Shown here piece by piece: positions 5,536 to 35,452 of a stretch of DNA of 35,452 nt (positions are counted from its first letter, which is position 1; each line of letters begins with the position of its first letter). Both the position numbers and the translations under genes were made by a program. The notes beneath the pieces were generated by a model. It saw only the letters and a program-made list of their open reading frames with translations, ran no database searches and was not told where the DNA came from. The stretch comes from a virus, in IMG/VR virus record IMGVR_UViG_3300043570_001468, positions 1 through 35,452 of that record; one strand, 5' to 3'.

Positions 5536-6132
5536 ATGATAGACATAATTAAATATGGTGAATTCAAACCTGTTGGAAAACAAAAAAAGAAACACCAAAT
5601 AATACTTACACACACATCAAGAAACATCAACGACTATCTTCAGTCGTTGAAGTTTCGTTTTAACGGGGGTTTTAAAAGAATTCCTAACTACATTATTACC
5701 CGGGAGGGTAAAATTATACAATTATTGGGAAACACCGAACACTCGGAATACTTCAAAGACCCCAATATAAATCGTAATTCAATTATCATATCATTAGAAA
5801 ATTTAGGGTGGTTACAAAAAGAACCACTAACTGACCATTACATTAACTGGATTGGGGATATTTATAAGGGTAGCGTGTTTGAAAAAAAGTGGAGAGATTA
5901 CTTTTTTTGGCAACCATATACTGAAACTCAAGTTGATAATCTTGGGTTATTATGTAAGGAATTGTTTGAAAGTGTAAAGATTAAATCACAAATTGTTGAA
6001 CATAACACAAAAATAAGCGGGATTGAAAAATATTGTGGGATTGTAACTAAAAGTAATTTTGGTGTTGATTATACCGATGTTAGTCCGGCATTTAAATTTA
6101 ATGAACTTTTAAAAAAAATAGAAAATGAATAA
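5536..6132 (+). CDS. N-acetylmuramoyl-L-alanine amidase-like protein (probable endolysin)
   Basis: The 198-residue protein follows the amidase_2 / T7-lysozyme pattern. It has an early strand ending in His (IILTHTSR, His26), a YIITREGKIIQLL hairpin, an ISLENLGWL strand, a second His in VEHNTK (His156) and a final TDVSPAF segment (Asp181). The usual last ligand pattern (His or Cys plus DPG) is altered, so zinc binding by His26, His156 and Asp181 is a guess. No signal peptide is present, consistent with a cytoplasmic endolysin released by a holin or a virion-borne enzyme. It follows the membrane genes and overlaps the next gene by 8 bases. The fold call is fairly good; activity is uncertain. Confidence 0.75.
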   Translation: MIDIIKYGEFKPVGKQKKKHQIILTHTSRNINDYLQSLKFRFNGGFKRIPNYIITREGKIIQLLGNTEHSEYFKDPNINRNSIIISLENLGWLQKEPLTDHYINWIGDIYKGSVFEKKWRDYFFWQPYTETQVDNLGLLCKELFESVKIKSQIVEHNTKISGIEKYCGIVTKSNFGVDYTDVSPAFKFNELLKKIENE

Positions 6133-6742
6133 TTCACACGACGAAATTAAACAATTATTAAATGTTTCTCGAAGATTATTGGGGGATAATAATGTAAATG
6201 AAGATATCCGTAGACAATATGGGTTATTGACAGAACAGGGTGTTGATTTGACAGATAATAATGTTACATCAAAAGTTAATGTGACTAAATCTGTTGAGGA
6301 CAAAATTGATTATGATACCGCTGATACTGAAGAAGAACTTGAATCTGAGGATGATAAAAAGCAAGCGTATAGAATTTCCGGTGGATTATTGGTTTTACAC
6401 GGAAAAGAACAAACAGATTTAGAGTTAACGACAGATGAGAAGATAGCGTTTCAAGAAACAATGGATGAGTTTGTTTCTAACGTTTCTGATATGGTTGATT
6501 TTAATAAATTAAACGTATATTCCAATAATGTTGAATGGTCCGGGAAACTTATTGAATTTGATATTGAATTTTTCTTTTCGATAGGTGAAGAAAATGGTGT
6601 TTACATCAATGGAGAAATGTTAAACGCTGATAATGAATTCATCGCGTTAATTACTAAATTAAAAACTTATTACGAGAAATTCAAATCAAAATGGGCGGCT
6701 GTATTATCATCAAGAAAGAAAACAATTAAAACTGAAGAATAA
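6125..6742 (+). CDS. Probable late/virion protein with prohead-type leader, function unknown
   Basis: This 205-residue acidic protein opens with a charged helix followed by EDIRRQYGLLTEQG (about residues 28-41). That segment closely matches the leader DIRSRYGLVNEQ of the peptidoglycan-binding protein at 26616. The LTE just before Gln is a candidate T4-type prohead protease cut (aliphatic-x-Glu). The mature domain contains an ISGGLLVLHGKE strand and an EFDIEFFFSIGEENGVYINGE region, likely beta-rich, with no known motif. It overlaps the amidase gene by 8 bases and the next gene by one. Unlike most leader-bearing genes here, it has no ATATTTATAA box. Confidence 0.75.
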   Translation: MNNSHDEIKQLLNVSRRLLGDNNVNEDIRRQYGLLTEQGVDLTDNNVTSKVNVTKSVEDKIDYDTADTEEELESEDDKKQAYRISGGLLVLHGKEQTDLELTTDEKIAFQETMDEFVSNVSDMVDFNKLNVYSNNVEWSGKLIEFDIEFFFSIGEENGVYINGEMLNADNEFIALITKLKTYYEKFKSKWAAVLSSRKKTIKTEE

Positions 6743-7113
6743 TGGAAGATATTAGTAAAAATAAAGATGGTATTATTTTATTGGTAATTATTGCCTGTTT
6801 GGTAGGGTGGAATATTTTCACAACCAATACAATAAAAACGGATGTTAAAGGTTATGGGAAAAAAATTGAAAATATCCAAACAAAAATTGATTCCTCACAA
6901 GTTGTTAATAAACAAATTAACACTAAAATTGGTGAGGTAAAAGAAAATGTAACAACTATCAGTAATGAAATCCATCACATTGATAAAAACATAACAGTAA
7001 TTAAAAAACAAACAAATGAGAAAGTTAATAACGTTGATAATATTCCTGACAGTGAGCTTGAGTTGTTTTTCACAAACAAATACGAACAACCAACCCCAAA
7101 ATCAGGTAATTAG
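6742..7113 (+). CDS. Membrane-anchored coiled-coil protein (possible inner-membrane spanin-like or lysis protein)
   Basis: The 123-residue product has a short N-terminal cytoplasmic part, one transmembrane helix (IILLVIIACLVGWNIF, about residues 11-26) and a long heptad-patterned periplasmic helix (KIENIQTKIDSSQ onward). This type II topology is that of inner-membrane spanins (Rz). The next gene starts inside its 3' end in the +1 frame at 7016, like nested Rz/Rz1 pairs. However, the downstream protein carries both ends of a spanin by itself, so this one may have another role. It is coupled to the preceding gene by an overlapping TAATG. Confidence 0.75.
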   Translation: MEDISKNKDGIILLVIIACLVGWNIFTTNTIKTDVKGYGKKIENIQTKIDSSQVVNKQINTKIGEVKENVTTISNEIHHIDKNITVIKKQTNEKVNNVDNIPDSELELFFTNKYEQPTPKSGN

Positions 7114-7456
7114 TGATACAACAAGAGTTAAGTTAAAACCATCGACAGCTAGACTAGCGATAAAAGATATTGTTAGAGGTGAAGGTTGTGAATTAGAGTT
7201 AAAATTAACTCAAGAAAAAGTTATAAAGTTAGAATCTAGAGAATCTCAAAAGGATACTATCATTTCTTTATTAGAATCCAAAGATAAGAATAATCAATTT
7301 ATTATTAGTCAACAAGGATTACAGGTTGATGAATTTAGAAATATGACTAATGATTTGAAAAAAGAAATAAAACAAATGAGGGTTAAAACTTTTTTATACA
7401 AAGTGGGAACATTTGTTGGTATATTAACAACTTCGTATTTATTAATTGTAAGATAA
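7016..7456 (+). CDS. Candidate unimolecular spanin (u-spanin)
   Basis: This 146-residue protein has an N-terminal secretion signal (MRKLITLIIFLTVSLSCFSQ). The Cys at residue 17 could be a lipoprotein lipobox Cys, or FSQ could be a signal peptidase I site of the flavobacterial kind. A helical, charged middle follows (LTQEKVIKLESRE..). The C-terminal transmembrane helix is VGTFVGILTTSYLLIV, ending in Arg. An N-terminal lipid anchor plus a C-terminal inner-membrane helix is the defining layout of phage u-spanins such as T1 gp11, which is of similar length. It lies near the amidase and overlaps a coiled-coil membrane gene out of frame by 98 bases. The lipobox is imperfect (SLSC), so lipidation is uncertain. 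Confidence 0.7.
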   Translation: MRKLITLIIFLTVSLSCFSQTNTNNQPQNQVISDTTRVKLKPSTARLAIKDIVRGEGCELELKLTQEKVIKLESRESQKDTIISLLESKDKNNQFIISQQGLQVDEFRNMTNDLKKEIKQMRVKTFLYKVGTFVGILTTSYLLIVR

Positions 7457-7457
7457 T

Positions 7458-7703
7458 ATGTCACTAACTACAACAGATAAAAAGGAGATTGAAACGTTAG
7501 TTCGTAAAGAAATTAAAGATTTCTTTGGGAGTAATACTATGCAACAATATGAAAATAAACTAATAGATGTTATTTCCAAAGAACTTAAACGAGGTAAACT
7601 TGAGGGGGATGTTAAAGATATTACATTAAGAATGTTCCGTGAGTTCTACCAATTTATGTGGATGAATAGAAGTTATTGGGAACCAAGACTTAAAAACGCA
7701 TAA
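7458..7703 (+). CDS. Small conserved phage protein, function unknown
   Basis: The protein has 81 residues and looks mostly helical and charged, with an aromatic C-terminal motif FREFYQFMWMNRSYWEPRL. It has no membrane segment or known catalytic motif. It lies one base after the spanin candidate and four before a structural-looking protein, all in one direction, so it is probably co-expressed late. I recall similar proteins in other uncultured marine phages but know no function. Confidence 0.7.
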   Translation: MSLTTTDKKEIETLVRKEIKDFFGSNTMQQYENKLIDVISKELKRGKLEGDVKDITLRMFREFYQFMWMNRSYWEPRLKNA

Positions 7704-7706
7704 CAT

Positions 7707-8465
7707 ATGAGACTAAAAGAAAGTATTGGGACTGATTTGAAAAGCGCTATGTCAACTGAAATGGGAAAATTGTCTACAATTACTAGTGGTGGTATTGATG
7801 CGGCGGTTGCAGCTAACGAATTTAAAAATGAAATCCCGGAAAATAATAATAAAATAATTAAAAAACCAATGAAAAAGGTTGATATCGGCAAATTAGTGGG
7901 TAAGAGTAAACTTAAAACACCAACAGGTAAATTAACAATGGGACTACCAATAATGGGTGAAGATAGTGAAACATCTGAATCTACCGGTTCAGGTTCCGCA
8001 GGAGGGTTTGAGGCTCCATTATTCTCTGAAACTAAACAAGAGATGCAAGAAAAATGTTGGACAGGTTTTGAACAAAAGGGTATGAAAAAGAAAGGTACAC
8101 GAATGGTCCCTAATTGTGTAAGAGAAGGTGACGAGGGTGATATTAAAAAAGTTGAGGCTACTGAATCAACAGGTTCAGGTTCTTCCGGTTCTTATGAAAC
8201 TACCGCCGCTTGGGCTAAATCTCAAAGTAAAAAAGATTGGAGAGGAAAGTCTAAGACACAAATACCCGGAGGAAAGTTTGTTCAAGTTAAAAAGAAATGT
8301 CAAAAATTTCCATATTGTAATCAAGGAGATATTAAAGCTCTAAAAATATTTGAAAATGAAAAGGTTAAGAAAGCTATTCAAAATATTAGTGAGAGACATA
8401 ATATAAGTGAGAATGTTATTAAAACAATTATCGCTTATGAGTATGAAAATACCTTTTCAAAGTAA
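7707..8465 (+). CDS. Probable virion/head-associated protein with STGSGS spacers and Cys motifs
   Basis: The 252-residue protein is low in hydrophobic residues and modular. A Lys-rich N-terminal part is followed by a first unit (ESTGSGSAGGFEAPLFSE, then CWTGFEQKGMKKKGTRMVPNC) and a second (ESTGSGSSGSYETTAAWAK, then VQVKKKCQKFPYCNQGD). A helical C-terminus ends in AYEYENTFSK. The CWxGFxxKGxKxKGxRMVPNC pattern recurs in structural and prohead-region proteins of marine phages, as I remember them. Paired cysteines spaced like this could bind metal. The gly/ser linkers and tandem plan suggest a virion decoration or scaffold-related protein; the exact role is unknown. Confidence 0.75.
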   Translation: MRLKESIGTDLKSAMSTEMGKLSTITSGGIDAAVAANEFKNEIPENNNKIIKKPMKKVDIGKLVGKSKLKTPTGKLTMGLPIMGEDSETSESTGSGSAGGFEAPLFSETKQEMQEKCWTGFEQKGMKKKGTRMVPNCVREGDEGDIKKVEATESTGSGSSGSYETTAAWAKSQSKKDWRGKSKTQIPGGKFVQVKKKCQKFPYCNQGDIKALKIFENEKVKKAIQNISERHNISENVIKTIIAYEYENTFSK

Positions 8466-8483
8466 TAAAGTTAAAAACTAATA

Positions 8484-8491
8484 TATTTATA
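8484..8491 (+). promoter_or_regulatory. Candidate phage late promoter box (ATATTTATAA type)
   Basis: TATTTATA (core of ATATTTATAATAAAAAC) lies 13 bases before the ATG at 8505. No TTTG lies at the expected -33 position. The same extended motif precedes four other leader-bearing genes in this window. Confidence 0.5.
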
Positions 8492-8504
8492 ATAAAAACT
8501 AAAA

Positions 8505-9821
8505 ATGAAAAAATTAAATACAACTTATTTAGATAATTTAGTGTCTAAAATTTTAAAAGAAACTTTAGAAGAAAAGGCGGACACTCTTGTTTCAAAGATT
8601 AAAGGTGACGTTTGCGAATGTGGGGGTCAAATGTATGAAGGTGAATGTAATGAATGTGGTGGTATGTATGAGGATATGAGTGAAGGAATTTACGATGTTG
8701 ATAACACATTAGATGATGAGTTTGATTATGTTGGAGAAAGTGAAGACTTTGTTGGTGATGAAGAAAACACTGACGAAGATAGAGAAAAAACTTGTAGATA
8801 CCATATTGAAAATTTTGGTAAAGAAGACCCTGTTACTAAAGAAATGTGTCAAGGTATTAATATTACCGAGGCATTAAAAGGTCGTCAAAGAAAATTGGAT
8901 AAAAACAAAAACAATAAGATTGATGCTGAAGACTTTGAAATGTTAAGAAATAAATCAAAAAATAGTAAAGCCATTAAAAGAATTAACAAAATTTCTACAA
9001 CACACGGAATGGAAGAACAAGAAACGGAAGAAGGTAATGCTTTCTCAGGAGCGTTATCTAACGCTAAAAAAAGTGGTAAAGATTCTTTTGAAGTAGATGG
9101 TAAAAAATATCCGGTTAAAGAATCGTATAGATTGACTGAAAATGAAATGGTTGGGTTAATTGAGAAAATTGTGTTAGAACAAAAAAATAAAGAAGTTAAA
9201 GACCCTGCGGAAAAAAATAACATTAAAGGTTTTGGAGGTTCTCCAAGAGGATTAGAGGTTTATAAAAAAGCTCACAATGGTTCCGGAAAGGAAAATGATG
9301 ATAACATTAAAGCGGTTACCAAAAAAATGAAAGATTATCTTAAAGATGGTTCTAAAGGTGATTATGAAATGAACCCTAAAATGTTTCCTAAAGGAAATGG
9401 TGAAATAGAAAAGATGAAGAAAAAGGCTTATACTATGTCAGATGCGGGTCAAGAATTTATTGATGATTTTATGAGTCCTGGTATGGAAAATTTAGACTAT
9501 GACCAAATAGAACCGAATGAAGAACAAATAACTAATAACATTGAAGGTTCTTCTAAAACAGGTAATAACTCTGAATGGGGTAATGCTGTTGAAACAGATG
9601 TTAACAAAAAGATTAATGCCAAACGTAAAGCTAATAAATTTGCTAAAGTAAGAAATATGGCTTATCAAAAATCTGCTCAACCTATTAAAGATGCGACAGG
9701 TGAGGATAGTGGTAAAGGTATTAACCTTAAATTGGAATCTACTGAAAAGAAAACAAAACAAATCAACGAAGAGTTTGACAGAATGAAATCGTTAATTAGT
9801 TACGACCGAAAAACACAATAA
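8505..9821 (+). CDS. Leader-bearing virion-type protein with Cys4 and EF-hand-like motifs
   Basis: This 438-residue, very hydrophilic protein starts with a helical leader (KLNTTYLDNLVSKILKET; LKE at 17-19 is a possible cleavage site). A possible zinc site follows at Cys37, 39, 48 and 51. Next come an acidic region, an EF-hand-like calcium loop at residues 132-143 (DKNKNNKIDAED) and a second leader-like segment at 208-226 (YRLTENEMVGLIEKIVLEQ). The C-terminal half is Lys/Asn/Gly-rich and ends KQINEEFDRMKSLISYDRK, again like the leaders. Two internal leaders suggest proteolytic maturation into pieces, as for prohead core proteins. The gene has its own candidate late box and is followed by a terminator. 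No enzyme motif is visible. Confidence 0.8.
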   Translation: MKKLNTTYLDNLVSKILKETLEEKADTLVSKIKGDVCECGGQMYEGECNECGGMYEDMSEGIYDVDNTLDDEFDYVGESEDFVGDEENTDEDREKTCRYHIENFGKEDPVTKEMCQGINITEALKGRQRKLDKNKNNKIDAEDFEMLRNKSKNSKAIKRINKISTTHGMEEQETEEGNAFSGALSNAKKSGKDSFEVDGKKYPVKESYRLTENEMVGLIEKIVLEQKNKEVKDPAEKNNIKGFGGSPRGLEVYKKAHNGSGKENDDNIKAVTKKMKDYLKDGSKGDYEMNPKMFPKGNGEIEKMKKKAYTMSDAGQEFIDDFMSPGMENLDYDQIEPNEEQITNNIEGSSKTGNNSEWGNAVETDVNKKINAKRKANKFAKVRNMAYQKSAQPIKDATGEDSGKGINLKLESTEKKTKQINEEFDRMKSLISYDRKTQ

Positions 9822-9850
9822 TTTACAAACAAATATTTTAACTTATAATT

Positions 9851-9883
9851 TCTCCATAGACGAACTCTATGGAGAATTTTTTT
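9851..9883 (+). terminator. Terminator hairpin that contains the next gene's start codon
   Basis: TCTCCATAG (9851-9859) pairs with CTATGGAGA (9867-9875) around a 7-base loop and is followed by seven T (9877-9883). The ATG of the next gene (9869-9871) is inside the 3' arm, and the T run encodes its Phe-Phe. Confidence 0.75.
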
Positions 9884-10333
9884 AACTACATATCAAAACC
9901 TTTATTACCGGAAGACGTTGACGTTTGGTTCCGAGGTAATAATATAATTTCTGAAAAATTGGAATTATATTCTGATTTCACGCATTCACTCAATAGTCTG
10001 ATTTTAAATACTTATTTAGGTGAGAATGATGTTAACGAAACTAAAATTGTTTTAAGTGAATCTGATGATAAAAATCACTTCGAGTGGTGTTGGAATAAAA
10101 CCATAGATAATTTTGATAAAGAAAACATTAAATTTAATAAAAAAGGTGAACACTTTGATTATTTTGAATCTTTTTTTGGGGAGACATTTTACAATCAAAA
10201 AGACACTAAAGTAAAATCCTCAATAGGGTTCTTTTTTACGGACCTATTTAACAATGAAAAACTATTTACTAAATCAGATTTAGATATGATAACAACCATT
10301 TATAAATTGTTGGATAAGTATTTAAAACATTAA
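9869..10333 (+). CDS. Conserved phage hypothetical protein (starts inside a terminator)
   Basis: This 154-residue soluble protein, beginning MENFFNYISKPLLPEDVDVW, is rich in aromatic and acidic residues with no known catalytic motif. The segment LLPEDVDVWFRGNNIISEKLE, close to its start, looks like a conserved core, and the next in-frame Met is near the C-terminus. ATG 9869 is therefore the only sensible start even though it lies in a terminator-like hairpin. In an RNA coming from upstream, that hairpin would both stop transcription and hide the start codon. No separate promoter is obvious. The function is unknown. Confidence 0.75.
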   Translation: MENFFNYISKPLLPEDVDVWFRGNNIISEKLELYSDFTHSLNSLILNTYLGENDVNETKIVLSESDDKNHFEWCWNKTIDNFDKENIKFNKKGEHFDYFESFFGETFYNQKDTKVKSSIGFFFTDLFNNEKLFTKSDLDMITTIYKLLDKYLKH

Positions 10334-10412
10334 AAAGGGTGATAGTATTTACTATAGGGTAAAAAAAATTACTTTTACTATTATAAAAAATAAATAAATT
10401 AAAATTATTCAG

Positions 10413-10589
10413 ATGGAAACGTTAGAACAAATTAAGTCATTGGTAGAAGAACTATCAGTAGACACAACAAAATTTTTCGGTGGTAATAATAGCGCCGGAA
10501 CAAGAGCTAGAAAATCAGCACAAGATTTAAAAAAATTATTAGATGGTCTAAGAAAAGAGATTTTATCTGAAAGAAAAGGGGGAGAATAA
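10413..10589 (+). CDS. Histone H1-like (Hc1-type) DNA-binding protein
   Basis: The 58-residue protein, starting METLEQIKSLVEELSVDTTK, matches the pattern of Bacteroidota Hc1-like proteins: a helical N-terminus, an F-x-G-x-N-x-AGTRARK turn (residues 22-34) and a C-terminal basic helix (QDLKKLLDGLRKEI). Such proteins bind DNA non-specifically and are widespread in Bacteroidota genomes. A phage copy might compact phage DNA, help take over the nucleoid or interfere with host chromatin. It is coupled to the next gene by an overlapping TAATG and preceded by 79 AT-rich bases containing the inverted repeat ATAGTA-TT-TACTAT (10342-10355). Family resemblance is good; the role is inferred. Confidence 0.75.
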   Translation: METLEQIKSLVEELSVDTTKFFGGNNSAGTRARKSAQDLKKLLDGLRKEILSERKGGE

Positions 10590-10777
10590 TGACGGATATT
10601 AATACAATTTATTTATTTGTATTTATCTTTTCAACGTTAACTGTTGTTAAGACAGTTGGTAGAATAATGAGTTCCCTATTTTCAAACCCACCAAAACCAA
10701 TTGTATGGGGGAAATGGGAACTTATCTTTCTTGGATTGGCAATTACATATTGCTTAACATATATTATAAAAAATTAA
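10589..10777 (+). CDS. Small protein with two membrane segments
   Basis: This 62-residue protein has hydrophobic helices near residues 6-24 (TIYLFVFIFSTLTVVKTVG) and 43-60 (LIFLGLAITYCLTYII), with a short Pro-rich loop (NPPKPIVWGKW) between. The size and double-helix hairpin fit small phage membrane proteins, including class II-type holins. It is far from the amidase (4.5 kb) and sits between non-lysis genes, so holin is only one possibility. It is translationally coupled to the Hc1-like gene. Confidence 0.6.
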   Translation: MTDINTIYLFVFIFSTLTVVKTVGRIMSSLFSNPPKPIVWGKWELIFLGLAITYCLTYIIKN

Positions 10778-10779
10778 TT

Positions 10780-11214
10780 ATGAGTTTATATAAAGAATTT
10801 TCATCTCTATTACCTTATTTACAGTCTGTTAGAAAATTAGAAAACTATTTAAGTTTTGACGTTAGTTTCCCAACATCTTGGAAGTTACCTAAAAAATATG
10901 TAGATGAAGAAAAGGTAATGGAACAAACTAGTAAAATTGAAGAACATCGATTTTTTTCATTTGTTTCGGAAATATCTGAAGAAAATGTGGGGATTATTTC
11001 TAGTAATTTAAAAAGTATTATACAATACAATCTTGAGTTAGAAGAAAAAGATAGGTTATTCCAAAATAAAGTTAACGAATTAAAGTCAATATTTGAGAGA
11101 CAAAATTTAACAAATTTAAAAGATTTAAGTTTTGAGATGAGACCAAAGACAAAAAAAATAAAATTAGACGATGGGGAAGAAAGCGTTAAAGGAATTGGAG
11201 TTACTGAATCGTGA
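10780..11214 (+). CDS. Conserved phage protein of unknown function (144 aa)
   Basis: The gene begins MSLYKEFSSLLPYLQSVRKL at the ATG at 10780, two bases after the previous stop. An upstream extension in this frame would overlap the preceding membrane protein and is not needed. The N-terminal half (SLLPYLQSVRKLENYLSFDV, then FPTSWKLPK) looks well conserved in pattern with proteins I recall from other uncultured phages. The C-terminal half is a charged helix ending in a Lys-rich tail. There is no membrane helix or catalytic motif. It overlaps the next gene by 44 bases. Confidence 0.75.
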   Translation: MSLYKEFSSLLPYLQSVRKLENYLSFDVSFPTSWKLPKKYVDEEKVMEQTSKIEEHRFFSFVSEISEENVGIISSNLKSIIQYNLELEEKDRLFQNKVNELKSIFERQNLTNLKDLSFEMRPKTKKIKLDDGEESVKGIGVTES

Positions 11215-11365
11215 TATAATTAAAAATGACCTTATCTTAAAACGAGATAAGGAAATTTTAATTGATAAAATTAAACAAATTCGTAAAGAAGATGTTGTAC
11301 CAAAACAACCTGAACCACCTAAAAAATTAACATTATGGCAGAGAATAAAAGTATTGATGGGATAA
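11171..11365 (+). CDS. Small charged helical protein
   Basis: This 64-residue basic protein is made of one long charged helix (LELLNRDIIKNDLILKRDKE) followed by a Pro-rich linker (PKQPEPPKK) and a C-terminal amphipathic tail (LTLWQRIKVLMG). The tail may touch membrane or a partner protein. It starts inside the previous gene and ends inside the next one (overlaps of 44 and 31 bases), so the three genes are probably translated in sequence. The function is unknown. Confidence 0.6.
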   Translation: MGKKALKELELLNRDIIKNDLILKRDKEILIDKIKQIRKEDVVPKQPEPPKKLTLWQRIKVLMG

Positions 11366-11586
11366 TTGAAAAGTTGGCGCTTGTTGCAGATGGATTACAA
11401 ACATTATTTCCGGATGGGACTATGGCGATTGCGATGGAACTTAACTACGATGATTATAAGAAAGTTCAAAAAAACTTTAGAGATGTTGATAGAGATTTCA
11501 AACAATTTAAGATTGATATGTCCGGTGTTGAATTTATGTTTTTATTGAAGGATGGGTCGTTGTCTGACGCTGTAAGTAATTCTTAG
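11335..11586 (+). CDS. Small conserved hypothetical protein
   Basis: The 83-residue protein has an N-terminal helical part (SIDGIIEKLALVADGLQTLF), a PDGTMAIAMELNYDDYKKV strand-helix unit and a C-terminal FMFLLKDGS strand. No catalytic motif was recognised. It closes a forward run of genes. Its 3' end overlaps the converging reverse-strand gene by 53 bases, and no terminator is visible between them, so the two transcripts may run into each other. Confidence 0.65.
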   Translation: MAENKSIDGIIEKLALVADGLQTLFPDGTMAIAMELNYDDYKKVQKNFRDVDRDFKQFKIDMSGVEFMFLLKDGSLSDAVSNS

Positions 11587-12178
11587 AAAACCCATTCTCA
11601 ATTAATAAATTGTATAAGTATTTTCTTTGAGCGTTAGAATAATCTTTAACAAACATAGTGTCATATCTTTTTTGTTCTATAAAGAATTCAGATATCACAT
11701 CAATAAATCTACTTGAGTCGTAATCATTCTTCAATGTAAATAAATTAAATTTATCGTCATTTTGAACAATAATTTTATTATTTAATTTTGATACTAATTT
11801 AAGTCCCGGTGGGTCCAAATATAATTTAATAAACTCTTTTGAGTTTATTTTTTTATTTAAAGTAGTGTCTAAAATATTTTCTTCAGTATGGTATGTGGTG
11901 ATTTTTTTAATTGAAAAATCTTCATCATCTAAATTCACTTTTACATTTCTTCCTAACTCATCTTTTAAAAATACAGGTAGAAAAGTTCCCGATACCTTTT
12001 CGAGGATGGCAATTTCATAATTAAAAGAAAATCCATTTTCATATTGTTTGTTAAACAATACGTTGTTACTATTATCCAATAAAGATTCGTAGAAGTTATT
12101 TGCTCTATTTGAGGTCTTAAACTTCTTGATTATTTTCTTTTTTACTTTATTTTTAAATAGAACAATTAAATAATTCAT
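11534..12178 (-). CDS. Reverse-strand hypothetical protein (214 aa)
   Basis: This soluble, Lys/Asn-rich protein opens MNYLIVLFKNKVKKKIIKKF, then has alternating strands and helices with no catalytic motif (for example ENGFSFNYEIAILEKVSGTF). Its length, good coding character and divergent arrangement with dnaJ support it as real. The start at 12178 is 38 bases from the dnaJ ATG, so both start in a shared short AT-rich spacer. The C-terminal 17 codons overlap the opposing 83-residue gene. Its reverse orientation in a forward cluster hints at independent regulation or later insertion. Confidence 0.7.
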   Translation of the reverse strand: MNYLIVLFKNKVKKKIIKKFKTSNRANNFYESLLDNSNNVLFNKQYENGFSFNYEIAILEKVSGTFLPVFLKDELGRNVKVNLDDEDFSIKKITTYHTEENILDTTLNKKINSKEFIKLYLDPPGLKLVSKLNNKIIVQNDDKFNLFTLKNDYDSSRFIDVISEFFIEQKRYDTMFVKDYSNAQRKYLYNLLIENGFSKNYLQRQTTTHPSIKT

Positions 12179-12216
12179 AATAAATAATTTAACTTTAAAT
12201 ATAGTAGAAGTAAAGA

Positions 12217-13137
12217 ATGGAAGATTTTTATCAAATATTAGGTGTTAACCAAAATGCCACACAGGACGAAATAAAGAAGGCTTATAGGAAGTTAGCTGTA
12301 GAACATCACCCGGATAAAGGTGGTGATGAAAATAAGTTTAAAAAGATTTCAGAGGCGTATGATACGATAGGCGACGAAAATAAACGAAGTCAATACGATA
12401 ACCAAAAAAGAAACCCCTTTGCTAATATGGGTGGTGGTGGTGGAGGAGGATTTAATCCGTTTGAGGAGATGTTTAACCAAATGCACACTCAAAGAAAACG
12501 TGCTGTCCCGGATAAGATAATTGAGGTGGTTGTTAATGCTGTTGAATCTTTCTTGGGAGGTGAAAAAAACATTACATATGAGCGAAACCATAATTGTGGT
12601 GGGTGTAATGGAACAGGTGGTGAAAAAATAACTTGTTCTACTTGTAATGGACAAGGAATGATTACTCAACAAATTGGAACCGGATTATTTACACAAATAA
12701 TTAGAACACATTGTGGTAGTTGTAGTGGTAGAGGTTTTACATATAGAACAACTTGTGGTACTTGTCACGGAACCACAACAACATCCTCAAAGGAAACCAT
12801 ATCAATTAAATTACCACACGGAATTGATGAGGGTCAATTTTTAAGAGTTCAAGGTAAAGGAGATTTTAGAGATGGGATGTACGGTAATTTAGTAATTAAA
12901 GTTAACATTATCCCGGAAAATAATTTTGAAAAATCAATGGAGGATTTAATCTATAATGCTTATTTTGATTTAAATACTATTAAATTAGGTAGTGTTAAAG
13001 TTCCCCATCCTTTAGGGGACATTTCAATTAAACTACCACAGGAGTTTGACACGTCAAAACCATTACGAGTTAAAGGTAAAGGATATCACGGTAGAGGTGA
13101 TTTATATATAAAACTATTTGTTAAGTTTAAAAGATAA
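12217..13137 (+). CDS. dnaJ: DnaJ (Hsp40) co-chaperone
   Basis: The 306-residue protein has all class I DnaJ parts. The J domain (residues 1-65) has HPD at 31-33, which stimulates DnaK ATPase. A Gly-rich linker (GGGGGGGFNPF) follows, then a four-repeat zinc domain starting at Cys127, Cys140, Cys166 and Cys180, then two beta substrate-binding domains (SIKLPHGIDEGQFLRVQGKG and a second copy). The fourth Cys repeat is degenerate (CGTCHGTT). It is about 70 residues shorter than E. coli DnaJ, with a trimmed C-terminus and no DnaK in the window, so it probably recruits host DnaK for capsid or replication-complex assembly. A terminator follows. Confidence 0.95.
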   Translation: MEDFYQILGVNQNATQDEIKKAYRKLAVEHHPDKGGDENKFKKISEAYDTIGDENKRSQYDNQKRNPFANMGGGGGGGFNPFEEMFNQMHTQRKRAVPDKIIEVVVNAVESFLGGEKNITYERNHNCGGCNGTGGEKITCSTCNGQGMITQQIGTGLFTQIIRTHCGSCSGRGFTYRTTCGTCHGTTTTSSKETISIKLPHGIDEGQFLRVQGKGDFRDGMYGNLVIKVNIIPENNFEKSMEDLIYNAYFDLNTIKLGSVKVPHPLGDISIKLPQEFDTSKPLRVKGKGYHGRGDLYIKLFVKFKR

Positions 13138-13158
13138 CCCCTATAAAGGGGTTTTTTT
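13136..13158 (+). terminator. Terminator after dnaJ
   Basis: AACCCC (13136-13141), a 6-base loop, GGGG and seven T form a compact rho-independent terminator that overlaps the dnaJ stop codon. It also sits at the 3' end of the opposing gene. Confidence 0.8.
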
Positions 13159-13372: not shown

Positions 13373-13393
13373 AGTAATAATATTAATTTAAAA

Positions 13394-13424
13394 CAAATAT
13401 AGTAAAAATTTTTTAAAAGAGAAA
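13394..13424 (-). promoter_or_regulatory. Candidate Bacteroidota-type promoter (reverse strand)
   Basis: On the reverse strand, TTTC (13424-13421), 19 bases, then TATATTTG (13401-13394) match TTTG-N19-TAnnTTTG with one mismatch in the -33 element. It would drive the 71-residue membrane protein. Confidence 0.5.
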
Positions 13425-13471
13425 CTTGCTTTTTCACTTTTTATTTCTTATACTTTAAAAAAAGAAAAATT

Positions 13472-14351: not shown

Positions 14352-14402
14352 TCCCGTTGAATAAAGAAAATAACGTTTGTTAGATTATTTACAAAAAACA
14401 AA

Positions 14403-14410
14403 TATTTATA
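14403..14410 (+). promoter_or_regulatory. Candidate phage late promoter box (ATATTTATAA type)
   Basis: TATTTATA within ATATTTATAATAAAAAC lies 14 bases before the ATG at 14425. A TTTG at 14376-14379 is 21 bases upstream of the box, so partial use by host-type sigma cannot be excluded here. Confidence 0.5.
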
Positions 14411-14424
14411 ATAAAAACAATTAA

Positions 14425-15822
14425 ATGAAGATTATCCAAGTACTTTCAAATTTAATAACTGAAGACGCTCGTTTTCAGGTATTTTATAATAAATATATAC
14501 TACCTAGTGGTGATAGAAAAAAAGGATTACTTCCTTTTGAAATTGTTAAGCAAATAGTTTTTGCTGACCCAACAACAAGAGTTCCGGTTAACTATGACAA
14601 AAATGGTGCGTCCGTTGAAGATATGTTAAGTAATCAAATTAAGGTTGGGAAATATAGTCAATGGATGTTAAATATGTTTATTAAACCACATTTAACTAAT
14701 GACAATAATGATGTTATAGAAGTTAATACTGACGAATATAAATCAAAGGCAAATCAATATAGAAAACTTTTTTTAGAAGATTTACATTACTTTACTGAAT
14801 TACTAACAAAATTTGAAAGATTCAAAGGTAGTTTAGTAGATGCGTCTAAGAAAGATATTAATAATGTTAAATCTATTAACGAATTATCTCAATTACAAGT
14901 TGAGTATGGTGATACAACAGTTGATTTGGCTGTGTATCGTGGTAAAAAAGTTAAAAACGAAAAAGGTGCTGACGTTAAAACAAACTTTAATTTTCCCGGT
15001 GCGGAAATATTAAAGGTTGGTTCAGAATATACCTTGATTAGAATTTCTGATAAAGGTGACTTAGGTTCTAAGGCGGCTTCTTATTTTGGAGGTTACGAAG
15101 GAGGATTAGCAAGAGGTGAGTCTAATTGGTGTACGGCAGCAACAGGTTCTGACCACTCACATAGATATAGACAAAAAGGTCCATTATATATTATTATGGC
15201 TAATGACGATAAAGGTAAAGTAGGTGAGGTAACAGGATTACCTACAGAAAGATATCAACTTCACTTTCCAGCACCGAGTCAATTTAAATCTCGTGACCAA
15301 TATTCTGCTGAGGGTAATGTCCCAATTGTTGAATTTTTAAATGGTAAATGGAGTGAATTTAAAGAAATATTGAAACCTGAATTTGCTAAAGGGTTTGTTA
15401 CACCAAATAGTGAAAACGTTAACATTAGATATCCATCTGATGAAACAGGTAGATTTGTTGCGTTATATGGGTTTGAAGAATTATTTGAGGCGTTACCGGA
15501 CACGATTAAAAAATTAAATATTGTTAACACTTCAAATGAAAACATTAGTGTAGCACTTCCTAAGTCAATTGTTAGGTTTAAATCGTTAGTGGCGGTGATG
15601 TTTCAGAATATGATTAGTTCAATTCCTGATAACATCTGTGAGTTGAAGAACTTGACGTTATTGGCTTTCCCTGATAATAAAGAATTAAAATCAGTTCCGG
15701 ATTGCATACTGTCATTAAAAAACTTTACATTTTTAAATGTAAACGGATGTCCTAATGTTCAAGTACCAAAAGAATTGGAAAAATATAATGAAGGTAATGG
15801 TTATTACCATATGGAAGAATAG
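14425..15822 (+). CDS. Leader-bearing WCTA-domain / leucine-rich-repeat protein, copy 1
   Basis: This 465-residue protein begins MKIIQVLSNLITEDARFQ; ITE at about residues 11-13 is a candidate prohead-protease site. A helical region with a conserved LPSGDRKKGLLPFE follows. The central domain has NWCTAA (Cys236), GPLYIIMANDDKGKV and RYQLHF (His280); Cys and His are kept in the neighbouring copy, so a Cys-dependent activity is conceivable. The last 110 residues form short leucine-rich repeats (LPDTIKKLNIVN, IPDNICELKNLTLLAF, VPDCILSLKNFTFLNV) ending in YHMEE. I recall WCTA..YQFHF domains in other marine phages without known function. I infer a packaged, possibly injected protein with LRR-mediated binding. 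Confidence 0.85.
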   Translation: MKIIQVLSNLITEDARFQVFYNKYILPSGDRKKGLLPFEIVKQIVFADPTTRVPVNYDKNGASVEDMLSNQIKVGKYSQWMLNMFIKPHLTNDNNDVIEVNTDEYKSKANQYRKLFLEDLHYFTELLTKFERFKGSLVDASKKDINNVKSINELSQLQVEYGDTTVDLAVYRGKKVKNEKGADVKTNFNFPGAEILKVGSEYTLIRISDKGDLGSKAASYFGGYEGGLARGESNWCTAATGSDHSHRYRQKGPLYIIMANDDKGKVGEVTGLPTERYQLHFPAPSQFKSRDQYSAEGNVPIVEFLNGKWSEFKEILKPEFAKGFVTPNSENVNIRYPSDETGRFVALYGFEELFEALPDTIKKLNIVNTSNENISVALPKSIVRFKSLVAVMFQNMISSIPDNICELKNLTLLAFPDNKELKSVPDCILSLKNFTFLNVNGCPNVQVPKELEKYNEGNGYYHMEE

Positions 15823-15832
15823 ATAAAGAAAA

Positions 15833-15840
15833 TATTTATA
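15833..15840 (+). promoter_or_regulatory. Candidate phage late promoter box (ATATTTATAA type)
   Basis: TATTTATA within ATATTTATAACAAAAAAAC lies 17 bases before the ATG at 15858, in the 35-base gap between the paralogues. No TTTG precedes it at -33 distance. Confidence 0.5.
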
Positions 15841-15857
15841 ACAAAAAAACAATTAAA

Positions 15858-17249
15858 ATGAAGATTACAAAAGTATTATCGAACTTAGTTACTGAAGACG
15901 CTCGTTTTCAAATTTTATACAAAAAATATGTGTTACCTAGTGGTGATAGAAAAAAAGGTTTACTACCATTTGAGGTTGTTAAACAAATTGTTTTCGCTGA
16001 CCCAACAACGAGAGTTCCTGAGAACTACGATAAGGAAGGTGCGTCTATTGAGGATATGACAAGTGACAAAATTAAAGTTGGTAAATATACCCAATGGTTG
16101 TTGAATCTATTTGTTAAACCATACATAACTAGAGAAGGTTCTAATGAACCAATTGAGGTTGGGACTGATGAGTATAAATCAAAGGCGACTGAATACAGAC
16201 GACTTTTCTTAGAAGATTTATCTCAATTCACTGAATTATTAGTGAAATATGATAGATTTAAAGGTAGTTTAGAGGATGCCGCTAAAAAAGACATTAACAA
16301 TGTTAAATCACTTAATGATTTATCTCACTTGAAAGTTAAAGTGGGTGATGAAACGGTTGATTTAAATATGTATCGTGGTAAAAAAATTAAGAAAGAAGAA
16401 GGTGTTGCTGCTAACACAAACTTTAATATTCCCGGAGCTGAAATTTTAAAAGTTGGTTCTGAATACACACTAATTAAAATTGCTGACAAAGGTGCTTTAG
16501 GTTCTAAAGCGGCATCTTATTTCGGTGGTTATAGTGGAGGACTTGATAGAGGTGAAACTAACTGGTGTACGGCAGCAGAAAATTCAAGTTATTCAAACAC
16601 TTACAGACAACAAGGTCCATTATATATCTTTATTGCTAATGATGATAAAGGTAAGGTTGGTCAAGTTACGGGGTTACCATCAGAAAGATATCAATTCCAC
16701 TTCCCATCTAACCAATTTAAATTTGCTAACCAACACGGTGGTAACATTCCGGTTGTTGAGTATTTGAATGGTAAATGGTCTGAGTTTAAAGAAATATTCA
16801 AACCTGAGTTTGCGGCTGGATTTGTTAAACCAAATTCTGATAATGTTGAAATTAAATACCCGGACTCTGCTACAGGTAAGTTCGTGGCTTTATACGGATT
16901 TGATGAATTATTTACATCATTACCTATAACAATTAAAAGATTGAACATTATTAACACTTCAACAGAAAGTGTTACAATTGATGTTCCTGAGTCAATCAGT
17001 AGATTCCAATCATTAACAGCAATATTGTTTGAGAATATGATTAGTAAACTTCCAAACTCAATCTGTGAATTAAAGAACTTGGTGTTTATCGCTGTTCCGG
17101 GTAACAAAGAATTGAAAACAATTCCGGAATGTATTATGAATTTACCAAACCTTACATTTGTGAATGTAAGTAGATGTCCTAATGTTCAAGTGCCAAAAGC
17201 GTTAGAACAATACAATACGGGTGAAGGTTTCTACCATATGGAAGAATAA
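15858..17249 (+). CDS. Leader-bearing WCTA-domain / leucine-rich-repeat protein, copy 2
   Basis: This 463-residue protein is the tandem paralogue of the gene before it, colinear along its length and about 80% identical over the first 60 residues by eye. The leader is MKITKVLSNLVTEDARFQ. The central domain keeps NWCTAA (Cys237), GPLYIFIANDDKGKV and RYQFHF (His281). The C-terminal leucine-rich repeats and the YHMEE end are also kept. Divergence is concentrated around residues 120-135, just after the WCTA motif, and in the LRR surface, as expected for two paralogues with different partners. It carries its own late-type box, so the duplication included the regulatory region. Function as for copy 1 is unknown. 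Confidence 0.85.
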   Translation: MKITKVLSNLVTEDARFQILYKKYVLPSGDRKKGLLPFEVVKQIVFADPTTRVPENYDKEGASIEDMTSDKIKVGKYTQWLLNLFVKPYITREGSNEPIEVGTDEYKSKATEYRRLFLEDLSQFTELLVKYDRFKGSLEDAAKKDINNVKSLNDLSHLKVKVGDETVDLNMYRGKKIKKEEGVAANTNFNIPGAEILKVGSEYTLIKIADKGALGSKAASYFGGYSGGLDRGETNWCTAAENSSYSNTYRQQGPLYIFIANDDKGKVGQVTGLPSERYQFHFPSNQFKFANQHGGNIPVVEYLNGKWSEFKEIFKPEFAAGFVKPNSDNVEIKYPDSATGKFVALYGFDELFTSLPITIKRLNIINTSTESVTIDVPESISRFQSLTAILFENMISKLPNSICELKNLVFIAVPGNKELKTIPECIMNLPNLTFVNVSRCPNVQVPKALEQYNTGEGFYHMEE

Positions 17250-17267
17250 TTTAAAAAAAATACTACT

Positions 17268-17590: not shown

Positions 17591-17608
17591 TGGTTCAAAA
17601 TAAACCTG

Positions 17609-19372: not shown

Positions 19373-19373
19373 T

Positions 19374-22072: not shown

Positions 22073-23440
22073 ATGAGAAGAAAATTGAGACTTACGGAAT
22101 CCGAATTATATAAAGTTATTAAACGAATCGTTGAGCAAACTGAGGATGAATATTATAAAATATCTCCTGAGGAATACTTGAATATAATGAAATATGCTAG
22201 TAATAATGGTAATATATTCAGAAAAATGAAACAATATGGTGGAAAACCATTATATGTTACGGGAGATTTAAATTTAAGTGGTACGAATGTTAAAGATATT
22301 GGACCGATTGCTTATGTCGATGGTAAATTGGATATTAGTCAAACTAATGTGTCTAATATTGGTGATTTAAAGGCTAAATCATATATTAGTGATTACGGTT
22401 CTCCTCGTGAAAGAATTAGAGATAGACAAGAACTTTTGGGTAAAAAGGCTGAGATGGATTCTAAAAGGGAAGATGATGAGTGGAACTTTCAAAATCAAGA
22501 TGATGATGGGTTGAAAGCTATGGCTTTATTAGAATGGCTTGAGGGTAATGGTGATATTAAAGTATTGGATGATAGTCAAAAAGAAGAGTTAAGAATATTA
22601 ACTCAACAATTAGATGAGCTTAATGCTCGCTATGATGATGAAGATAGAGATGGCGACCCAGATGAGAATGTTGAAATATTAAATCAAATTGAGGAGGTTG
22701 AAGAAAAAGTTGGTGAATTAACCGAAGATGTTGCGGATATATATGATATATACCCAACAGGGTATGAACATTATGGTTTAACCACATTTGAAGTTTTAGT
22801 GGGTGGATTTAAAGATAGGTCATATAGTGTTGGTATTGAAGAAGAAATGGAAAAAGCGGCATTAGAATATGCGGAATCAATAATAGATGAGAACGGAGTT
22901 CAAGGATTCAGACAAGAATTTCTTCAGAATTATTTAGATGAAAATGCGATTATTGAATTTGCTAGAGAAGATTATGAATACACAGTTAGGGATAGTCCTG
23001 ATAGTTACTTTAATGATAATGATTTTGAATTGACTCCGGAGCAAGAAGAAAGAATATCTCAAATTGAATCACAAATTGAAGATTTAGAAGAACAACAAAA
23101 AGAATTAGATTCTGACGATGAGAATTATTATGATTATGAAGAAGATATACAAAATCAAATTGACGCTCTTCAAGAAGAATTAGATAATATTGAGGTTGAT
23201 ACTGAACCAACAGAAGATATGATAGATAATAAGGTTGAGGAATTGGTTCGATACGTTAAAAGAGACCCATTAGATTATCTAATTGAATATGGAATGGAAA
23301 TTAAAGAATTTGTTGATACTGATGCTTTGGCTCAAGGATTAGTTGATGCTGATGGTTGGGGTATGATAAGTAGTTACGATGGTAATTATGATAGTGTTAA
23401 TATCGCCGGTGAGACATATTACGTAATGAGAATTAGTTAA
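22073..23440 (+). CDS. Leader-bearing solenoid/coiled-coil protein (probable virion protein)
   Basis: This 455-residue, strongly acidic protein starts with the leader RKLRLTESELYKVIKRIVEQ (IVE then Gln is a candidate cut). Residues 58-100 form LRR-like short repeats (YVTGDLNLSGTNVKDIG, then YVDGKLDISQTNVSNIG). Charged regions with strong coiled-coil patterns follow (ILTQQLDELNARYDDED; ISQIESQIEDLEEQQKELDS), with Asp/Glu-rich linkers between. The C-terminus (VNIAGETYYVMRIS) is a compact strand. The upstream TTTTG and TATCTTAG at 22045-22057 are imperfect promoter elements, and a TATTTATT lies 3 bases before the ATG. It probably acts as a packaged scaffold or internal protein; the function is unknown. 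Confidence 0.8.
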   Translation: MRRKLRLTESELYKVIKRIVEQTEDEYYKISPEEYLNIMKYASNNGNIFRKMKQYGGKPLYVTGDLNLSGTNVKDIGPIAYVDGKLDISQTNVSNIGDLKAKSYISDYGSPRERIRDRQELLGKKAEMDSKREDDEWNFQNQDDDGLKAMALLEWLEGNGDIKVLDDSQKEELRILTQQLDELNARYDDEDRDGDPDENVEILNQIEEVEEKVGELTEDVADIYDIYPTGYEHYGLTTFEVLVGGFKDRSYSVGIEEEMEKAALEYAESIIDENGVQGFRQEFLQNYLDENAIIEFAREDYEYTVRDSPDSYFNDNDFELTPEQEERISQIESQIEDLEEQQKELDSDDENYYDYEEDIQNQIDALQEELDNIEVDTEPTEDMIDNKVEELVRYVKRDPLDYLIEYGMEIKEFVDTDALAQGLVDADGWGMISSYDGNYDSVNIAGETYYVMRIS

Positions 23441-26582: not shown

Positions 26583-26592
26583 AATTTCAGTA

Positions 26593-26600
26593 TATTTATA
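26593..26600 (+). promoter_or_regulatory. Candidate phage late promoter box (ATATTTATAA type)
   Basis: TATTTATA within ATATTTATAACTAAAAC lies 15 bases before the ATG at 26616, directly after a terminator. Since readthrough is blocked, this is the best-isolated example that a promoter should lie here. No TTTG is found at -33. Confidence 0.6.
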
Positions 26601-26615
26601 ACTAAAACAAATACT

Positions 26616-26975
26616 ATGTCAAAAAGATTTATAATTTCAGAAGATGAAAAAAGAGATATCCGTTCAAGATACGGATTGGTTAATGAACAAAATGAAAGTC
26701 CTGAACTTAAAAAGGGGATTCAATGTTTTCTTAATAAAAAAGGGTTTAGAGACGATAAGAATCAACCATTAAAGATTGATGGGTTATTAGCTGGTAAAAC
26801 AGCAGCGGCTTTAAGTAAATATCAATCTAAGATTGGTGTGTCTCCGGCTGATGGTGTTTGGGGTCCAATGACTCAAAATAAAATGCCGGATAGTGACGTT
26901 CAAATTTTTAAACAATGTGTTTCTGATGAAGGTAGTTTTATCGATAAAGGGTTACATATGTTTGGATTAGATTAA
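26616..26975 (+). CDS. Leader-bearing peptidoglycan-binding protein
   Basis: This 119-residue protein starts KRFIISEDEKRDIRSRYGLV and then NEQ; the DIRSRYGLVNEQ segment matches EDIRRQYGLLTEQ of the protein at 6125. VNE then Gln is a candidate processing site at about residue 24. The rest is a PG_binding_1-type helical repeat (LKIDGLLAGKTAAALSKYQS, then VSPADGVWGPMTQNKM), which binds cell-wall peptidoglycan. No hydrolase domain is attached, so it could be a processed virion component that holds the wall or helps entry. It is transcribed alone from a late-type box and converges on a reverse-strand DUF192 gene with a 4-base overlap. Confidence 0.8.
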   Translation: MSKRFIISEDEKRDIRSRYGLVNEQNESPELKKGIQCFLNKKGFRDDKNQPLKIDGLLAGKTAAALSKYQSKIGVSPADGVWGPMTQNKMPDSDVQIFKQCVSDEGSFIDKGLHMFGLD

Positions 26976-34063: not shown

Positions 34064-34074
34064 ATTTTATATGA

Positions 34075-34082
34075 TATTTATA
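34075..34082 (+). promoter_or_regulatory. Candidate phage late promoter box (ATATTTATAA type)
   Basis: TATTTATA in GATATTTATAAATAAACTG lies 12 bases before the ATG at 34095 and after a terminator. The overlapping TATAAATA (34079-34086) is the T4 late promoter core in the standard orientation, so the true polarity of this motif is ambiguous here. Confidence 0.55.
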
Positions 34083-34094
34083 AATAAACTGAAG

Positions 34095-34415
34095 ATGAAG
34101 GATATTATATTAACAGAAAAACAACTTGAAAAGTTGGTTACCAAAATGAAAACCATTAAAGAAGATGAAGGTAAAGGTTCATATATGGCAAAACAACAGA
34201 TGTATGTAATTGCTAAGATGGCTGAGAAGATGTGGGAAAAAATGGAAGAAGATGAAAATTGTCAGTTAGACGATTGGATGGAAAGCAAAATAGCTCAAGC
34301 TGAACAAAGTATTTCATCTGTGGTTAAAGCATTTATGTATGATGATTTAAAAGATAATGAAGAAATTGGGGGAATGAATAAACTAGGGTTTGACGACCTG
34401 ATAATAGGTAAATAA
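34095..34415 (+). CDS. Leader-bearing virion-type protein (106 aa)
   Basis: This protein starts MKDIILTEKQLEKLVTKMKT, then IKED: IKE then Asp is a candidate processing site. The mature part is helical (MAKQQMYVIAKMAEKMWEKM; DDWMESKIAQAEQSISSVVK). I recall the WMESKIAQAEQSI pattern from several uncultured phages, where it occurs near structural genes. ATG 34095 is chosen because an upstream frame would cross the terminator and the box. It is two bases before the ferritin-like gene and the two are probably co-transcribed. Confidence 0.75.
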   Translation: MKDIILTEKQLEKLVTKMKTIKEDEGKGSYMAKQQMYVIAKMAEKMWEKMEEDENCQLDDWMESKIAQAEQSISSVVKAFMYDDLKDNEEIGGMNKLGFDDLIIGK

Positions 34416-34416
34416 A

Positions 34417-35013
34417 ATGGGGGAAGATACATTAAAAGACAAATTTATAGATAATATTAAAAAAATGGATTCATCAAAGGAAACCAAAGAAGATACTAAA
34501 CCTGCTGAAGTAAAAATAGGTAAAGTTGAGTTATATAAATTGGATTCAAAAACGATTCAAATATTAACAGATAGAATTAAAGATGAGTACATTGCTCATT
34601 ATTACTACAGAGCGGCAGCCAATTGGTGTCAGGATAAAAATTATAAGAAAGCGTTTGATTTCTTCGTTGCTGAGGCAGATGATGAGTTAGTTCACGCTAA
34701 AGGACTTCAAGAATACATGGCAGATTTTAATATCATTGCTCAAATACCTCAAGCTCCAACATCACATAGTTTTGATAGTTTGGTTGATATTATTTATGGG
34801 GCATATGCTGTTGAGCTGGCACTTATGAAAGAATATAATAAAAATTCTCAAGAGTTATTTGCTTCTGATATAACAACATTTGATTTCTTAAAAAAATATA
34901 GAAAATTTCAAAAAGATGCTGTGGTTGAGTATAATGATTTCATCAACGCAATTGATTTGATTGATAAAACAGATAAGTTCCAAGTATTATACTTTGAGCA
35001 AACATATTTCTAA
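34417..35013 (+). CDS. Ferritin-like diiron protein
   Basis: This 198-residue protein has a 40-residue Lys/Asp-rich N-terminal extension and a four-helix bundle with ferritin-like ligands: E57 in IKDEYIAHYYYRA, E90 and H93 in AEADDELVHAKGL (ExxH), E133 in AYAVELALMKEYN, and E171 in DAVVEYNDFI. The Ala/Tyr-rich helix A and ExxH in helix B resemble bacterial ferritins and Dps-like proteins. It may store iron or protect phage DNA from oxidation; a packaged role is possible because it follows a leader-bearing gene. It has no leader of its own. The iron site is inferred from four or five ligand positions. Confidence 0.8.
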   Translation: MGEDTLKDKFIDNIKKMDSSKETKEDTKPAEVKIGKVELYKLDSKTIQILTDRIKDEYIAHYYYRAAANWCQDKNYKKAFDFFVAEADDELVHAKGLQEYMADFNIIAQIPQAPTSHSFDSLVDIIYGAYAVELALMKEYNKNSQELFASDITTFDFLKKYRKFQKDAVVEYNDFINAIDLIDKTDKFQVLYFEQTYF

Positions 35014-35014
35014 A

Positions 35015-35452
35015 ATGAAAGAATTAATTAAACGTGTATTAAAGGAAGAACAAGAGGCTCCTGTCTTAAATAGGAGTGAAATTATATTATTCAAACAGAT
35101 TAATAATAATAAAAAAAATATTGGGACCAAACAAAAAATGGTTGAGTTTATTAAGGGGTTGTTAAGATATTTTAGTATTCCCCAAGATAAGGCGACATTT
35201 TACTATGAGGTTTATACTGCAAATTTCAGACCGGATGGTGATTACGAGAATTTAACGAAAGAGAATTTCAAGGATTATAAGTACTTCAAACAACAAAAAG
35301 TTGCAAACAATTCTGCTTACGAATACGCTAATGCTAAGATGCCGTTTAAAGGTTCTAATATTGAAGGTAAGTGGGATGTTAATAAAAATAATGATTGGTA
35401 TTATGTGATTATATCTTGGGGATGGTATCCGGTATTTTTATATATAAATGAT
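35015..35452 (+). CDS. Leader-bearing protein (3' partial), family known from related phages
   Basis: The frame starts MKELIKRVLKEEQEAPVLNR and is open to the right edge (146 codons). The leader ends LKE then Glu, a candidate prohead-protease site at residue 11. Later segments TFYYEVYTANFRPDGDYENL, NSAYEYANAKMPFKGSNIEG and IISWGWYPVFLYIND look like a beta-rich family I recall from several uncultured flavobacterial phages, with unknown function. It starts one base after the ferritin-like gene and has no visible late box of its own. Confidence 0.75.
   Translation, partial: MKELIKRVLKEEQEAPVLNRSEIILFKQINNNKKNIGTKQKMVEFIKGLLRYFSIPQDKATFYYEVYTANFRPDGDYENLTKENFKDYKYFKQQKVANNSAYEYANAKMPFKGSNIEGKWDVNKNNDWYYVIISWGWYPVFLYIND

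Follow-up and report, generated by a model that had tools for sequence, protein, structure and literature searches.

Short aliphatic-x-Glu leaders on dozens of proteins suggest an enlarged T4-type internal-protein system in giant freshwater phages

Dozens of otherwise unrelated proteins in a group of giant freshwater T4-like phages carry a short N-terminal leader ending in aliphatic-x-Glu, a scale of tagging that appears from sequence to go far beyond that of the model phage T4 and that most likely serves head loading and delivery with the DNA. The leaders are probably prohead-targeting propeptides of an enlarged T4-style internal-protein system, in which gp21 cuts them and the bodies are packaged. 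In such a system, the leader proteins would be made late, alongside the head and tail proteins, and the amphipathic leader would dock each of them onto the scaffolding core. As the head matures, a gp21-type protease would then cut after the Glu of (L/I/V)-x-Glu, and the mature bodies would remain in the head beside the DNA and reach the host upon infection. Cleavage, packaging, and injection of the leader proteins are predicted here, and the bodies may have early-takeover or anti-defence roles; that most of them are injected effectors is less certain than targeting, cutting, and packaging.

The window, meaning the whole stretch of DNA that was analysed, is a complete virus record of 35,452 bases and, as its relatives indicate, is a piece of a T4-type phage genome of 270-320 kb. 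Relatives of up to 322 kb were fetched using the gp46-like protein of the window, and no close cultured phage was found with gp46. The 272-kb relative G001 matches positions 607-20337 of the window (19.7 kb) at 98.4% identity. Four large relatives (G001, G002, G010, and G011) were fetched and gene-called. Because the window is a fragment, the S77 protease is missing from its 35,452 bases. Absence of a gp21-type protease had been set beforehand as a possible refutation of prohead processing, and the protease was found in every relative that contains a head module, G001 among them: the S77 family (PF03420) scored above cut-off in six of six (E 3e-23 to 1.5e-25), and gp23 (PF07068) was encoded in all six. 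The T4 head-gene order 20-21-22-23 was present in G001, G010, and G011, the three that were read completely. Relatives without a match to S77 or gp23 lack both genes in each case and are therefore probably fragments.

The initial annotation had listed eight window proteins with such leaders, and reading of all eight N-termini bore out both their starts and the terminal aliphatic-x-Glu (Table 1; proteins are named by start position). Its description of the bodies as unrelated stands for seven families, not eight, since the 14425 and 15858 proteins are paralogues of about 71% identity. Only the 26616 protein has a clear domain, PG_binding_1 (PF01471, residues 35-90, E 4.6e-6). The WCTA-LRR pair gave weak LRR matches, and an AlphaFold2 model of a WCTA-LRR protein had a mean pLDDT of 53, too poor for use. 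In counts read off the alignment listing, aliphatic-x-Glu was kept in 34 of 34 distinct N-termini of 6125 orthologues and [aliphatic]xE↓[TN] in 35 of 35 of 8505 orthologues (↓, putative cut), in both cases despite varying spacing; in the 14425/15858 family aliphatic-x-Glu was found in eight of eight homologous N-termini. The G011 orthologue of the 6125 protein matched class A (24.8 bits), and the G001 counterpart of the 35015 protein is 307 aa long. The 8505 protein has a second leader-like stretch inside (residues 209-227, class B HMM), which is conserved in G002 and G011.

Table 1. Leaders and late-gene elements of the window, with the consensus patterns of the leader classes (↓, putative cut)
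Feature	Position	Strand	Sequence or pattern	Remarks
Leader, 205-aa protein	6125..6235	+	...QYGLLTE↓Q (LLTE↓Q)	34 distinct orthologous N-termini
Leader, 438-aa Cys-rich protein	8505..8561	+	...SKILKE↓T	35 distinct orthologous N-termini
Leader, WCTA-LRR protein 1	14425..14463	+	MKIIQVLSNLITE↓D (LITE↓D)	homologous N-termini
Leader, WCTA-LRR protein 2 (paralogue of 14425)	15858..15896	+	MKITKVLSNLVTE↓D (LVTE↓D)	
Class B leader, 455-aa protein	22073..22135	+	MRRKLRLTESELYKVIKRIVE↓Q (RIVE↓Q)	class B HMM 31.0 bits
Class A leader, before PG_binding_1	26616..26687	+	MSKRFIISEDEKRDIRSRYGLVNE↓Q (LVNE↓Q)	class A HMM 38.4 bits
Class C leader	34095..34163	+	MKDIILTEKQLEKLVTKMKTIKE↓D (TIKE↓D)	class C HMM 19.2 bits
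Class D leader, ORF cut by window end	35015..35047	+	MKELIKRVLKE↓E	class D HMM 23.2 bits
Late-gene element	8483..8497	+	ATATTTATAATAAAA	PWM 13.7 bits
Late-gene element	14402..14416	+	ATATTTATAATAAAA	PWM 13.7 bits
Late-gene element	15832..15846	+	ATATTTATAACAAAA	PWM 11.1 bits
Late-gene element	26592..26606	+	ATATTTATAACTAAA	PWM 11.2 bits
Late-gene element	34074..34088	+	ATATTTATAAATAAA (includes TATAAATA)	PWM 14.6 bits
Class A leader pattern			ISEEEK.RIL..H....YLSE↓Q	
Class B leader pattern			K.I.LTESDL..IVKRVINE↓x	
Class C leader pattern			MK.IITESQ	
Class D leader pattern			MKELI..ILRE↓x	

A bare [LIVM]xE triplet is common and by itself weak evidence. It occurred 25-28 times per 1000 positions near N-termini vs 16.5-18 internally, and this modest enrichment (about 1.5-1.7-fold, no more), which would suit an origin of the leaders by chance or annotation artefact from Lys-rich starts and common LxE triplets, meant that the claim needed testing in relatives. 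HMMs for classes A-D and F were therefore built from the four large relatives, with a match threshold of at least 9 bits. Matches at N-termini and at internal positions, window included, numbered 29:0 for class A, 35:6 for B, 55:1 for C, 42:3 for D, and 5:0 for F. Leader proteins numbered 30 in G001, 38 in G002, 45 in G010, and 25 in G011 (10.5%, 11.9%, 13.6%, and 9.1% of called genes), and these counts are probably lower bounds, since the leaders of 8505, 14425, and 15858 fall outside the HMM classes. The leader HMMs had no N-terminal match in eight other phages (T4, S-ShM2, HTVC008M, Mel-JY01, crAss001, SPO1, BM15, and immuto), which were searched with 1,326 proteins in total. The HMM comparison across related phages that the initial annotation had proposed thus found N-terminal matches predominating in the relatives and none at the N-termini of other phages.

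Seeds for the leader classes were picked by eye in the genomes that were then scored; the control phages and a score-based pair test, which sought well-aligning 30-residue segments between proteins with non-matching bodies, are independent of that seeding. The pair test gave 58, 86, 61, and 137 N-terminal pairs in the relatives vs 3-17 internal and 10-13 C-terminal pairs, and 0, 2, and 1 N-terminal pairs in three phages without S77. In T4 it found the internal-protein leader MKTYQEFIAE↓A, alongside ordinary N-terminal domain pairs. No leader families were found by the pair test in the cyanophage S-ShM2, the pelagiphage HTVC008M, or the Microcystis phage Mel-JY01, all of which bear S77; having S77 is thus not enough to predict an expanded set. 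The cultured Flavobacterium phage immuto gave 16 N-terminal pairs vs 0-1; part of its pairs are ordinary (tail fibres and signal peptides). A chance or artefactual origin, to which next to no credence was given, was ruled out by the HMM and pair tests, the orthologue conservation, and the control phages.

A tblastn search of a 23-residue leader against a phage collection gave no match, and none of the papers searched contained the exact leader strings. With a degenerate DNA string encoding the class B leader, an exact search gave at least 120 matching viral contig stretches. Among the matches listed, 13 of the 14 large contigs hold gp21 and gp23 and the remaining one holds neither, a co-occurrence with S77 that is partly expected because the 14 probably belong to one phage clade.

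The leader ends were compared with processing sites in the head proteins of the same phages. In class B the final Glu is present in 97%, with I, L, M, or V two positions earlier and an internal L-T-E-S; [IL]xE is present in 100% of class C and [LI][RK]E in 100% of class D. V occurs besides L and I at the first site position. Class C has no conserved second Glu, and therefore only the first site, at about residue 7, could serve. When 61 representatives with unrelated bodies were aligned, two Glu were the sole near-invariant columns after M1; a length-matched control alignment had no near-invariant Glu columns. The gp23 propeptide ends in ...ENQAS(F/H/Y)LINE↓(A/S) in all gp23 listed, and this LINE↓ end presumably corresponds in position to the cut in T4 gp23. 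All gp22 listed have LV(K/R)E↓S and most have SL[TNSK]E↓Q, and in gp21 an aliphatic-x-E↓(S/N) site precedes the catalytic domain; these gp23, gp22, and gp21 cut sites are predicted from sequence and by analogy with T4. At P1', the leaders frequently have Q, N, D, E, or T, and gp23 and the T4 internal proteins have A or S. T4 gp21 cleaves at L/I-x-E, and in the T4 IPIII leader residues 4 and 7 influence targeting and residues 8 and 10 govern processing, which is blocked by Asp at position 10 (PMC9026906). Targeting and processing are supported because the leader ends fit both this published specificity and the gp23, gp22, and gp21 sites of the same phages.

Leaders and bodies behave as separate modules. 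The 138 leader proteins fall into 91 body clusters, several of which have mixed leader classes; as part of these rest on weak matches, reliance is placed on two cases. G010_48611 (class B, VINE↓NQEEVDRILDKIS) and G010_72090 (class C, LIE↓NQKYVDSLLDKIS) have homologous bodies behind different leaders, with body similarity starting directly after the Glu, and AVGVP bodies are preceded by leaders of either 15 or 23 residues. The leaders are amphipathic, as the initial annotation had held (0.573 vs 0.448 for their own shuffles), and conservation runs along the helix, beyond the site. Both features would suit an uncut interaction helix that ties late proteins to a virion or host component, with aliphatic-x-Glu as its binding face. 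We regard this reading as very unlikely: conserved site positions hold Glu and never Asp (116:0), the site is identical to the gp23 propeptide end, spacing from helix to site is variable within class A and among the orthologues of 6125, and body homology begins straight after the Glu.

If the leaders are cut prohead-targeting sequences, many of the tagged proteins might still be head-assembly factors (core, vertex, or size-determining) that are consumed or retained in the capsid and not injected. Leader carriers do lie in the head locus, one between gp20 and gp21 (MNFGILKTKIERVLLE↓SY) and one downstream of gp23 (MLNDIIKKILRE↓ATSDS in G010, MNKNNKIQIKE↓ATGES in G001), and there is a T4 precedent in the degradation of gp67, gp68, and gp22 and the processing of gp24 (PMC9026906, PMC5694885). 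Assembly factors would nevertheless hardly be expected to number 25-45 per genome or to have bodies so highly variable, and so often confined to one genome, as the 91 clusters show them to be. Only two Pfam families were matched among the 61 leader representatives vs 34 in a length-matched non-leader set, where they included thymidylate synthase, a sigma factor, and the portal; this reading was accordingly judged unlikely. The scarcity of matches indicates that few of the bodies can be recognised as proteins of replication, metabolism, or virion structure, and almost no function was assigned to them using Pfam and PHROGs. Basic bodies (pI >8) made up 38% vs 18%, and the overall shift in pI was not significant (p 0.06).

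The packaged-protein model also has the leader genes expressed late, and a 15-base element, ATATTTATaAAtAAA, is located about 21-26 bases upstream of the ATG in the window. Head and tail genes without leaders from G001 and G010 served to train a PWM of the element, and G002 and G011 were the test genomes. Genes with an upstream gap of at least 30 were counted, and they were assigned to groups from their position in G001 and from similarity in the other genomes; the choice of element is not fully independent, since it was first noticed in leader genes, though training used non-leader genes. In G002 and G011, it was found upstream of 18 of the 39 leader genes and 27 of the 55 virion (late) genes, vs 1 of 17 for replication and 38 of 235 for the remaining genes. 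Its frequency in leader genes was similar to that in virion genes (p 0.84) and differed from that in replication genes (p 0.005) and in the others (p 7e-5). All five window sites above 10 bits lie upstream of the eight leader genes (P 2.4e-5, hypergeometric). This common element suggests that leader genes are expressed with the late virion genes; given its closeness to the ATG, it may act in translation instead of being a promoter. Prohead targeting and processing, as put forward in the initial annotation, thus appears supported by S77 and gp23 in the relatives, the motif match, the common element, and the leader-string contigs.

The T4 proteins Ip1-3 are injected anti-restriction factors, each of which blocks a different GmrSD enzyme, and further T-even internal proteins were discovered through their leader (PMC12373910). 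If the present leaders act as in T4, each environmental phage would encode tens of proteins that are candidates for injection; nearly all lack a known family, and they could be listed from a signature of 10-25 residues. The leader would then reveal unknown early-takeover and anti-defence proteins from sequence alone, and what phages inject besides DNA would become directly testable beyond E. coli. More tentatively, and at somewhat below even chances in our estimate, these phages may have more head-packaged, injected proteins than any other known phage, with dozens of bodies per virion encoded by about one-tenth of the genes, and with swappable leader families as zip codes that might direct bodies to distinct sites within the prohead.

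The closest known system is that of T4 IPI-III, whose capsid targeting sequence, MKTYQEFIAE↓A, is established as a targeting leader and is processed by gp21. Shared with it are a short N-terminal leader on unrelated bodies, an L/I-x-E site, a gp21-type protease, and the T4 head operon. The present phages differ in having several leader families where T4 has one, and 25-45 leader proteins per genome vs three IPs in T4; the T-even phages overall have at least ten internal proteins (PMC12373910). An HMM search of T4 N-termini detected no homology to the T4 leader, and because the likeness is confined to architecture and motif, the leaders are said to work like those of T4 and homology is not claimed. 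In length and motif, class C (MKIIITE↓S) resembles T4 Alt (MMELITE↓L) and class D (MKELIRHILRE↓D) resembles T4 gp24 (MAKINELLRE↓S), with cut sites inferred from the motif; the Alt propeptide has 7 residues (PMC9026906) and those of T4 head proteins such as gp24 have 10-20 (PMC5694885). Alt and gp24 are one protein each, whereas whole families are found here. The phages phiKZ, 201phi2-1, and SPN3US are likewise giant, with many processed head proteins (8 in SPN3US and 19 in 201phi2-1) and Glu at P1, but the phiKZ motif is S/A-x-E, unlike here, and the propeptides are often long (PMC5694885, PMC9026906). The cultured, T4-like Flavobacterium phage immuto (MW353175), whose host is Flavobacterium sp. 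LMO8, bears S77 and likewise has shared leaders of its own, one of which, MENFDLKKFLVENKLTxNSKLLxE, is present on four proteins; its leader sequences are other than those described here, and its set is smaller.

The late-gene element, a 15-base sequence 5' of late and leader genes in four large relatives of the window phage (G001, G002, G010, and G011), is nearly palindromic, TATTTATAAATA, and contains TATAAATA, a string known from T4 late promoters. Given how near the element lies to the ATG, it may act either in transcription or in translation. The ferritin-like gene and the two leader genes that flank it probably form a single operon.

Features in the window and in relatives
Feature	Location	Remarks
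Protein bearing CWTGFEQKGMKKKGTRMVPNCV motif	window 7707-8465	matches phrog_9737, phrog_727, and other PHROGs without assigned function
Internal leader-like stretch	window 8505-9821, residues 209-227	
Late-gene element, example copy	window 34074-34088	
Ferritin-like protein	window 34417-35013	leader absent; flanked by leader genes 34095 and 35015
Pro-rich protein	G001 112920; G010 231348; G011 238169	KILEEI.RY..IN.YI.E|Q family

Within the 8505 leader protein, a second leader-like stretch, RLTENEMVGLIEKIVLEQ, was observed; it is kept in the orthologues from G002 and G011 and, by analogy with T4 core proteins, may be a second cut site. The two named PHROGs matched by the protein bearing CWTGFEQKGMKKKGTRMVPNCV each also match single leader proteins in relatives. 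An additional leader-like family, which the HMM leader classes leave out, is carried by a Pro-rich protein encoded among the tail genes of G001, G010, and G011.

The T4-like Flavobacterium phage immuto (MW353175, L178-L181) has leader families of its own, namely MENFDLKKFLVENKLT..., MKKQILSEQF.RMQ.LAGIITES, and MKKSQLR.IIKE, and a small protein encoded in its head operon between the protease and the scaffold-like gene has a start related to these leaders. Immuto, a cultured phage, can serve as a test case for the leader model.
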